In this document: piece after piece, positions 75-1,616 of the stretch | How positions within the stretch are numbered: position 1 is the first letter of the stretch | Layout: each line of letters starts with the position of its first letter | Made by a program: the position numbers and the translations under genes | Assembly: GCA_018822365.1 (NCBI GenBank) | Contig: JAHJKL010000033.1 | Coordinates: 1 to 39,833, forward strand | DNA: 39,833 nt | Direction: 5' to 3' | Origin: Candidatus Margulisiibacteriota bacterium | Lineage (GTDB): Bacteria; Margulisbacteria; WOR-1; O2-12-FULL-45-9; XYB2-FULL-48-7 | The notes under the pieces: generated by a model | The model's database searches: none | What the model was told of the DNA's origin: nothing | What the model saw: the letters and a program-made list of their open reading frames with translations, nothing else

Positions 75-363
75 AGCTTATGGCCTATACGGAGATTACT
101 TTTTCCCCTCTTGTTTACTGGGCGACCATTTTCTTTGTCTGGCCACAAAGAAAATGGTCAAAAAGAAAAGGCCTAGCGCATTTCGATTTTTCTTAAGGTA
201 AGCGAAATGCGCGAACACTCTGAATTTGTACGAGGCAAAGCTAAAGATAATCGATTGTGCTCTCAAACAGGCTCTTTTGGTCCAAAGGGAGAGACATCGT
301 TGTCCCTATTAACTGTGGTGCATATTTGGGCTATCTAACCTTCAGTGGTTTTAGCAATTAAGT
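75..363 (+). repeat. Structured two-hairpin repeat, copy A
   Basis: This is the first of four copies of an interspersed repeat. Its core is hairpin 1 (arms 124-138 and 145-159, 15 perfect pairs, loop CTGGCC), a 16-nt purine-rich linker ending in AGGCCT-like sequence, and hairpin 2 (arms 176-185 and 203-212, 10 perfect pairs, 17-nt loop). A conserved upstream block (about 75-98) is shared with copy B. A more divergent downstream block (about 290-360) containing TGCAT and TAACCTT is shared with copies B and C. The gene-free stretch 1-649 is otherwise explained only by this repeat, the hairpins at 6-72 and the second repeat type at 447-508. No ORF across it looks genuine. Confidence 0.85.
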
Positions 364-446
364 CCTGCTGTTCATGTGACCAGAAAACCTGCAGGTAGCC
401 AAATTGGCCTGCACGGATAATGGCTTCTTCAATTCTTTAATTTTCT

Positions 447-508
447 CCCCATTTCTTTGACAGCAAAGAAATGGGGGAAAGAAACTGCTTAAGGGGATAC
501 CCCTTAAG
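447..508. repeat. Second hairpin-pair repeat type
   Basis: A perfect 13-bp hairpin (arms 447-459 and 464-476, loop ACAG) is followed by an 11-nt linker GAAAGAAACTG and a 9-bp hairpin (arms 488-496 and 500-508, loop ATA). The design, a hairpin with CCATTTCTTTG-like arms then a purine linker then a second hairpin, mirrors the four-copy repeat. The sequence is different, so it is either a diverged relative or a second family. No T-tract follows either stem. Confidence 0.65.
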
Positions 509-649
509 AATCCCCAGCCTTCAAAACGCCCCCGCGGCACCAATGGAGACCAACCGCGTGCCGCTAACCCCGCCCCCTCAAGGAACCCCTTTGAAGGCCA
601 TATTTGATTTTATTAAAAATATAAGACATTAGATATCATTCATTAAACA

Positions 650-1312
650 ATGGTAAGATTATATCTTATGATAAACAAAGCGGTTGAAGAAATAAAAAAT
701 AAGAATAAAAGCCGAATAGAAACCATTAGAGCTTGGGATTTTTCCCCCAACATGAACATTCCTAATATACCCCTTATTCCTCTTGATCATAAGCAATCCT
801 CTCAAGAAAACATTTCAACTCGTTTAGCAATTTACATCTCCTTCAACTACAAGACCGTTATTAACGCAAAAAATGCTTTTTTATGCCTTTGGGAAAATAA
901 CAATTTTCAGTTGATGTCCCTGCCAATTCGCCTCATAATTCTTAACGACATTGACAATAGCAAATCAATTGAAAAATGTAATCAATTAGTTTTAGGATCA
1001 AAGTTAAACATAGAATTGCCTTGGGGCGGCAAAAGCAAGGAGAAAGCCATAAACATAATGGAAATGATAGATAAATTTGATGACAAAGAAACAAAAGAAA
1101 CATACAATTTTCTTTCAGAATCATGCCACCCCAACCATTTAGCCTCAGTATACTGGAATCTTAATAACTGGAACAACAAACGATTCGCAGGATATCTAGA
1201 GGATACAATCAACAAAACACTTGAAGCGCTAGAAAAGTCGCTAACGGGAATGTCAAGAGACGGAGAAAAAGCGCTCAAAATTGCAAATAATTATTTGTCA
1301 AAAAAGCAGTAA
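650..1312 (+). CDS. Hypothetical protein, accessory, AT-rich
   Basis: A 220-residue soluble protein with no signal peptide or membrane segment. I do not recognise it with confidence. The central part carries a hydrophobic strand-rich section (about residues 57-100) and a motif SESCHPNH near residue 155. A Ser-x-x-Cys/Val-His-Pro pattern in an alpha-helical region is reminiscent of DUF5677/HEPN-like proteins, but this is only a resemblance. Base composition is much more AT-rich than the envelope genes downstream, which fits acquired DNA. It stands alone between repeat copy A upstream (same orientation) and copy B downstream (opposite orientation). The ATG at 650 and the in-frame ATG at 668 are both possible starts, and neither has a clear ribosome binding site. 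Confidence 0.6.
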   Translation: MVRLYLMINKAVEEIKNKNKSRIETIRAWDFSPNMNIPNIPLIPLDHKQSSQENISTRLAIYISFNYKTVINAKNAFLCLWENNNFQLMSLPIRLIILNDIDNSKSIEKCNQLVLGSKLNIELPWGGKSKEKAINIMEMIDKFDDKETKETYNFLSESCHPNHLASVYWNLNNWNNKRFAGYLEDTINKTLEALEKSLTGMSRDGEKALKIANNYLSKKQ

Positions 1313-1341
1313 ATAATAAGGGGTAACCTCAAAATATTATG

Positions 1342-1616
1342 TAAAACCGCTAAAGGTTGGTTGACTTCAATCTGCATCACAACAAACAGGTACAAACCTG
1401 TCCCTCCTCCCCAACCGAAAATACGATTTAACAAACCATATTCATTTTGTTGAAAACTGCTTCGTATAAATTCAGAGTGGGCACGCATTTCGCTTTCCTT
1501 AAGAAAAATCGAAATGCGTAAGGCCTTTTCTTTTCGTCCATTTTCTTTGTGGCCAGACAAAGAAAATGGACACCCAGCAAAAGAGATAGAATATAGTAAT
1601 TTCCGTATAGGCCATG
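1342..1616 (-). repeat. Structured two-hairpin repeat, copy B (inverted)
   Basis: Reverse-oriented copy of the repeat at 75-363. Hairpin 2 arms are 1483-1492 and 1510-1519 (17-nt loop). Hairpin 1 arms are 1536-1550 and 1557-1571 (6-nt loop). The linker is 1520-1535. The outermost pair of hairpin 2 is A-T here and G-C in the other copies, so both arms changed together. The distal block near 1600-1616 matches the upstream block of copy A. The block near 1342-1410 matches A and C and contains its own short hairpin. The 426-nt gap between 1313 and 1738 holds this repeat and, at its end, the promoter of the next operon. An ORF can be read through the repeat on the minus strand, but it is not a credible gene. 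Confidence 0.85.

Follow-up and report, generated by a model that had tools for sequence, protein, structure and literature searches.

In small genomes of uncultured lineages, individual AT-rich genes come and go at recurrent chromosomal spots, and what carries them is seldom known. The window analysed here is the whole of a 39,833-nucleotide contig (C33) of an uncultured Saganbacteria-type bacterium of WOR-1, and near its beginning a single AT-rich gene of 220 aa is enclosed by two inverted copies, A and B, of a hairpin-rich repeat. This raises the question of whether the gene and its flanks form a mobile unit and, if so, where that unit ends. Our preferred reading, to which we give slightly better than even odds (roughly 0.55), is that the arrangement, termed module 1 (A, RE, the 220-aa gene and B), is a cargo copy of a non-autonomous, MITE-like element with hairpin-rich ends, probably moved in trans. 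The element has a left end, LE (~280 nt), and a second, different structured end, RE (~190 nt). Module 2, at the other end of the window, consists of copy C, two genes and copy D. The source genome (G000) is a 1.68-Mb assembly in 88 contigs, 95% complete. A same-genus relative (G001) was used for site comparison, three genomes (G002, G005 and G006) represent sister genera, and the phylum-level set comprises 74 genomes. C33 starts ~74 nt outside copy A and terminates within copy D, so that the sequence lacks the flank to the left of module 1 and the one to the right of module 2. The features are listed in Table 1.

Table 1. Coordinates of the repeat copies and cargo genes in the window.
Feature	Position	Strand	Remarks
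Two small hairpins, 6-30 and 41-73	6..73	.	just outside copy A
Copy A, LE	73..355	+	terminus TTAAAGCTTATGGCCTATACGGAGATTACT; inner part after hairpin 2
RE, second structured end	428..614	+	homologous copies at C22:13168, C48:40728, and L040 and L041 of G001
Cargo gene, 220 aa	650..1312	+	GC 0.339; second possible start at 668
Copy B, LE reverse	1340..1622	-	hairpin 1 at 1536-1571, hairpin 2 at 1483-1519
Copy C, LE of module 2	38598..38880	+	terminus CCCTGTACGTATTTAG
Module-2 cargo gene, 112 aa	38924..39262	-	homologue in G001 at the module-1 orthologous site
Module-2 cargo gene, 81 aa	39255..39500	-	overlaps the 112-aa gene
Copy D, LE reverse	39667..39833	-	cut by contig end

A repeat search of the window aligned arms at 74-237 and 1458-1621, which are 164 nt long, 87% complementary and 1220 nt apart, and in a search of the genome against itself copy A matched copy B with E = 1.1e-50. 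Each copy holds two hairpins (124-138/145-159 and 176-188/200-212 in A; 1536-1550/1557-1571 and 1483-1496/1506-1519 in B), with stems 100% and 92-93% complementary over the two copies; in A, hairpin 1 (124-159) is followed by the tail AAAAAGAAAAGG, hairpin 2 (176-212) and the inner part. The homology reaches past the hairpins, inward to ~355 in A and to ~1340 in B, and the inner end of B comes within 28 bp of the stop codon of the 220-aa gene. The outer blocks are also alike (GGCCTATACGGAGATTACT and GGCCTATACGGAAATTACT; 77% identity across A positions 75-123), and the two outer termini are closer to each other than either is to those of C, C61, C72, L039 or L040. The inverted pair with matching outer ends that had been reported in the preliminary description is thus borne out. 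The inner part of A, on the other hand, is 95% identical to the copy on C82 and 61% identical to B, so that A and B did not arise by a recent duplication and, as far as these alignments go, have different histories. The stretch 1340-1572 of B aligns to L044 7531-7298. The small-hairpin unit outside A recurs beside LE at the orthologous site of G001, and part of it beside the C82 copy; identities are 93-94% to G001:1645168-1645234 and 1644917-1644963, and 83% to C82:213-287. At L040 6110-6600 (G001:C1:1644909-1645399), two tandem units of an array of near-perfect small palindromes lie beside an LE copy; among the palindromes is the hairpin found next to the Y1/RAYT-type gene of that genome.

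The bracket of A and B holds one gene, whose GC content compares with a mean of 0.525 (SD 0.031) over 29 genes of the window. Its protein has no family match, and module 1 therefore encodes no recognisable transposase or recombinase; in both respects, a single AT-rich gene of unknown function and no mobility enzyme between the repeats, the first description of the locus was accurate. No relative of the protein was found in the 74 genomes of the phylum, and no match in plasmid records, viral contigs or, by sequence, the PDB. An AlphaFold single-sequence model had a pLDDT of 34.7 and was unusable.

RE had been overlooked in the preliminary description and is different from the A/B repeat. Its first hairpin (447-476; CCCCATTTCTTTG/CAAAGAAATGGGG) is of the same type as those of LE and has the tail GAAAGAAA, a second lies at 488-508 (CTTAAGGGG/CCCCTTAAG), and a long stem (518-525/590-597) encloses a further hairpin (534-540/558-564). 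The relation between LE and RE is seen at C72 and at L041 of G001, where LE joins RE directly, with RE reversed, at a joint, or hinge, of sequence AATCAAATRTGGCC; the hinge sequence of RE in the window is GGCCATATTTGATT. In addition, the outer end of RE (CCCGTATTTTAGTTTTTGTTCTCTTTTG, from C48) resembles, by eye, the outer end of LE (CCTGTACGTATTTAACTTTTTTGCTCTCTTTTACG). Since LE runs into RE and the outer ends are similar, the empty element is, on the sequences compared, a non-coding unit of ~560 bp whose two ends are related without being the same. In cargo copies there are one or two AT-rich genes at or near this hinge.

LE is present in seven copies in the genome, namely the four of the window and those on C72, C61 and C82, and RE in at least three; more copies of both occur in G001. 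In the alignment of the copies, the conserved part of LE extends well past the hairpins, to ~280 nt. Hairpin 1 hardly differs from copy to copy (83-100% identity, with most pairs at 94-100%), and the outer and inner parts vary. Empty LE-RE elements are seen at L041 and at C72/C22, the latter split by an IS flanked by GTTC, and remnants of such elements at C48 and L039. C72 and C22 presumably represent one site, as they are joined by the IS ends and by synteny; it consists of LE, RE with the IS inside it, and a gene with a SIR2 domain. The orthologous site in G001 is empty, the same two flanking genes lying ~20 bp apart. At the C61 site, our genome has LE, which ends at the hinge, followed by a 90-aa gene and no RE; in G001 the site holds nothing but a palindromic copy of 115 bp, which has CCTGTACGTATT and AATACGTACAGG as its termini.

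The module-1 site itself can be followed into G001, because window positions 1684-5128 match L040 3446-4 at 85%. There the 220-aa gene is absent. A 105-aa gene lies between RE and LE, in the layout of module 1, and the site also has a 547-aa AT-rich gene (L040 3480-5123) with no Pfam or PADLOC match. The 105-aa protein is 51% identical over 90 aa to that of the 112-aa gene of module 2, which means that a gene of module 2 in the window occupies the module-1 site in G001; one weak partial relative of the 112-aa gene was also found among viral contigs. Both module sites are occupied in both genomes. Other genes flanked by the repeat, for which the preliminary description had suggested a search, therefore exist: the pair of module 2, the 90-aa gene on C61 (LE only) and the 105-aa gene. 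The same comparison contradicts the idea that A and B never occur apart from each other or from the gene between them, since copies are single or empty at C72/C22, C61 and C48 in our genome and at L039, L041 and L042 in G001, and others carry other genes; A, B and the 220-aa gene are thus not an obligate unit. Such independent occurrence is what the preliminary description had named as the refutation of its reading. Nor is A tied to the 220-aa gene, as its positional counterpart in G001 adjoins a different gene. No clear target-site duplication is visible at A/B, L042 or C72/C22, the outer flanks of both modules being partly missing.

These single copies also lend themselves to a different explanation, in which LE and RE are independent MITE-like insertions or remnants that accumulate in variable intergenic islands beside horizontally gained genes, the bracketing of the 220-aa gene is a coincidence and no unit moves. 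The repeats found singly at C61, C72, C82 and L039 are as expected from it, as is the closer likeness of the inner part of A to C82 than to B, and further elements share the islands, namely RAYT-type REPs, an IS, a PIN-domain toxin-like pair, the SIR2 gene and an ORF6N gene; defence genes, moreover, are equally common on both sides of the hairpins in relatives. However, cargo made up of different genes repeatedly begins at one and the same hinge in the two genomes, flanked by RE and LE; on the RE side, the window and G001 share the exact break point. In addition, the outer termini of A and B are mutually closer than to those of the other copies. We therefore regard mere accumulation as unlikely, if a serious contender. 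The suggestion in the preliminary description of a non-autonomous cassette with inverted repeats stands as the best reading, on the strength of the shared termini, the empty C72/C22 orthologue, the differing cargo and the hinge; the limits given to the unit, 75-1616, need not hold.

Two delimitations may be considered. The window order is A (LE, plus), RE (plus), the 220-aa gene and B (LE, minus), and the module-1 cargo element may, most simply, be 428-1622 (RE, gene and B), with RE as the likely partner of B and A as an extra LE. This matches G001, where a positional counterpart of A, in the same orientation towards an lpxB-like gene and with similar outer hairpins, exists without B. Alternatively, the element may at present be bounded by A and B, with RE in its interior, which is favoured by the 77% match of their outer termini while the outer terminus of RE in module 1 looks eroded. 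Element architecture is not uniform, in view of C61 without RE, module 2 with LE at both ends, and C22 with its SIR2 gene outside RE.

Two observations from the vicinity of module 2 are recorded here. Two direct copies of a 42-bp stretch from the 3' end of a prmC-like gene (38352-38393 and 38548-38589) flank a 70-bp remnant of an ORF6N gene (PADLOC PDC-S05) that is intact in G001; the second copy is plausibly the original C-terminus of the prmC-like gene, suggesting an insertion into the gene end. A REP-type hairpin (GGAACCTGAGAATGAATTCTCGGTTCC) at 38394-38428 is like those flanking a Y1/RAYT-type gene on C63 (L148).

Long, inverted and 87% alike, A and B could also be the arms of an invertible segment, the preliminary description's other suggestion, in which homologous or site-specific recombination between them would flip 238-1457 and perhaps switch expression of the gene. 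Relative to the common flank, the order is indeed LE (plus), gene (minus), RE (minus) in G001 and RE (plus), gene (plus), LE (minus) in the window. The cargo differs between the two genomes, however, and the difference in orientation can therefore equally be due to independent insertion; moreover, no invertase is encoded nearby and the inner parts of A and B diverge. Inversion thus appears improbable.

The hairpins offer a separate line of evidence. Across ten LE sequences, all 250 cells of the stems (25 pairs in each) are standard pairs, and the changes comprise nine two-sided cells and no one-sided cell; in a shuffle control, 0 of 500 were as high for cells paired, for pairs with two-sided change or for the covariation score. 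The restriction to two-sided changes indicates, insofar as aligned sequences can tell, either that folding is important or that it is actively restored; the pattern is expected from selection on a folded end as well as from the correction of palindromes by template switching. Strong, conserved stems would also be expected if the hairpins around acquired genes acted in RNA or as transcription signals (a structured RNA or bidirectional terminators), with mobility incidental; in module 1 as well as in L040, the gene has RE shortly before it and LE shortly after it. Against such a role, no Rfam family matched at the gathering score and none of weight at a relaxed E-value, neither strand has a T-run after the LE hairpin, no one-sided, G-U-type change occurs in the stems, and the copies face genes in both orientations. 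We consider it very improbable.

The hairpin-plus-tail motif, in the form TTTCTTTK-loop-MAAAGAAA-n(3-9)-AAAGAAA, was found in 20 of the 74 genomes of the phylum, with none for the reversed control, and LE had no match by blastn in plasmid and phage records. Copies in other genera are mostly empty and ~400-580 bp long. In another family, the layout of a bracketed gene recurs independently at L070 2600-4060 (G049:C19), where convergent hairpins and ~100-nt inverted flanks enclose a gene of 310 aa that lies between two Omp85-like genes and has a match to the PADLOC candidate family PDC-S18. Single defence-type genes adjoin hairpins in the cases of SIR2, PDC-S18 and PDC-S05. Defence cargo as a rule was nevertheless rejected, because by our reading of the relatives defence families are no more frequent among inward genes (~6 of 69) than among outward ones (~7 of 76).

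As to what may move the element, its terminus CCTGTACGTATTNRA, with one mismatch allowed, was found only at LE-type copies in our genome and in G001. No autonomous partner is thus seen, and an IS may have been missed in an assembly of this completeness and fragmentation. A Y1/RAYT transposase as mobiliser was rejected: Y1 genes are present in 9 of 20 genomes with the motif and 20 of 54 without it (p = 0.60), and the Y1 loci L148-L150 carry hairpins other than LE and RE. In sister genera, hairpin elements are bounded at both ends by inverted dif-like XerC/XerD sites (L091 and L092 in G006, L076 and L078 in G005). L093 of G002 has such ends too, with the arms kept and a different centre, and the elements with dif-like ends in these three genomes are empty. 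XerCD is accordingly a specific, as yet unproven, candidate mobiliser of the sister-genus elements.

One may generalise from this to a tyrosine recombinase, XerC/XerD-like or integron-like, that acts on the folded ends in place of a DDE transposase, in the manner of pdif modules or of a phage attachment site that folds. The inverted dif-like ends in sister genera, the single chromosomal dif-like site of most genomes of the phylum and the perfect covariation of the stems point this way. Nevertheless, a scan of the element ends in the genus of the window yielded no dif-like site, no integron-type site was identified, and ordinary Xer integration does not explain an inverted dif pair; hence this alternative, too, seems improbable. 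A broader and speculative version, to which we give little credence, is that hairpin-ended cassettes throughout the phylum move as folded single-stranded DNA by means of a host tyrosine recombinase (XerC/XerD in sister genera, another in the genus of the window) and carry single orphan or defence-type genes, in a position between pdif modules, integron cassettes and MITEs.

Returning to the MITE-like element, we infer that the unit moves, and also that an enzyme acting in trans moves it. An empty copy is LE joined to RE at the hinge, and cargo genes lie at or near that point. The element makes no enzyme; most likely a recombinase or transposase supplied in trans recognises the folded ends, as in mobile insertion cassettes. 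The two-sided changes in the stems, the spread of the motif in the phylum and the L070 case are further points in favour of this reading. Against it weigh the failure to find an autonomous partner or a convincing target-site duplication, the uneven architecture, the contact of both modules with contig ends, the mostly empty copies in relatives and the lack of an inward excess of defence genes. Given an element without an enzyme, no autonomous partner seen and the dif-like ends of sister elements, a trans-acting recombinase that reads the folded ends serves as our working assumption. If such elements do carry the single AT-rich genes of these genomes, cassettes in the phylum can be searched for by a concrete unit, TTTCTTTG-loop-CAAAGAAA and then AAAGAAA. 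The sister genera, with their dif-like ends, also allow a specific mechanism to be tested.

Several known systems share features with the element. Integron cassettes are accessory genes associated with folded imperfect palindromes, the attC sites; here, by contrast, the repeats are inverted instead of direct, both ends belong to one element and there is no array. In the pdif modules of Acinetobacter, one accessory or adaptive gene is flanked by a pair of Xer-type sites and the module encodes no recombinase (PMC6449649, PMC6160057). The carriage of one gene by a pair of sites and the inverted dif-like ends of the sister-genus copies are reminiscent of them, but the elements of the window have no dif-like ends, and the sister copies that do have them are empty, chromosomal and hairpin-rich. 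REP/BIME and REPIN sequences, mobilised by RAYT (Y1), are intergenic hairpin repeats in inverted pairs (PMC3116915, PMC2817692). Hairpins in inverted pairs are likewise found here and RAYT-type genes are present in both genomes of the genus, although these Y1 genes are flanked by different hairpins and LE and RE are far larger. MICs (e.g. MIC231) and MITEs are non-autonomous elements with inverted related ends and no transposase gene, and the family includes empty (MITE-like) and gene-carrying versions in dispersed intergenic copies (PMC3129680, PMC5444012). Module 1 similarly has inverted terminal repeats and no transposase gene, and copies with and without cargo are dispersed in its own genome. 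It departs from that family in that no cognate IS was found, that the ends are 190-280 nt long with several covarying hairpins and an LE that differs from RE, and that no target-site duplication is seen where the outer flanks of the modules are partly missing. Because no cognate IS was found and no clear target duplication was seen, we do not file the element as a MIC, and judge that, by its anatomy, it resembles a MIC together with its MITE.
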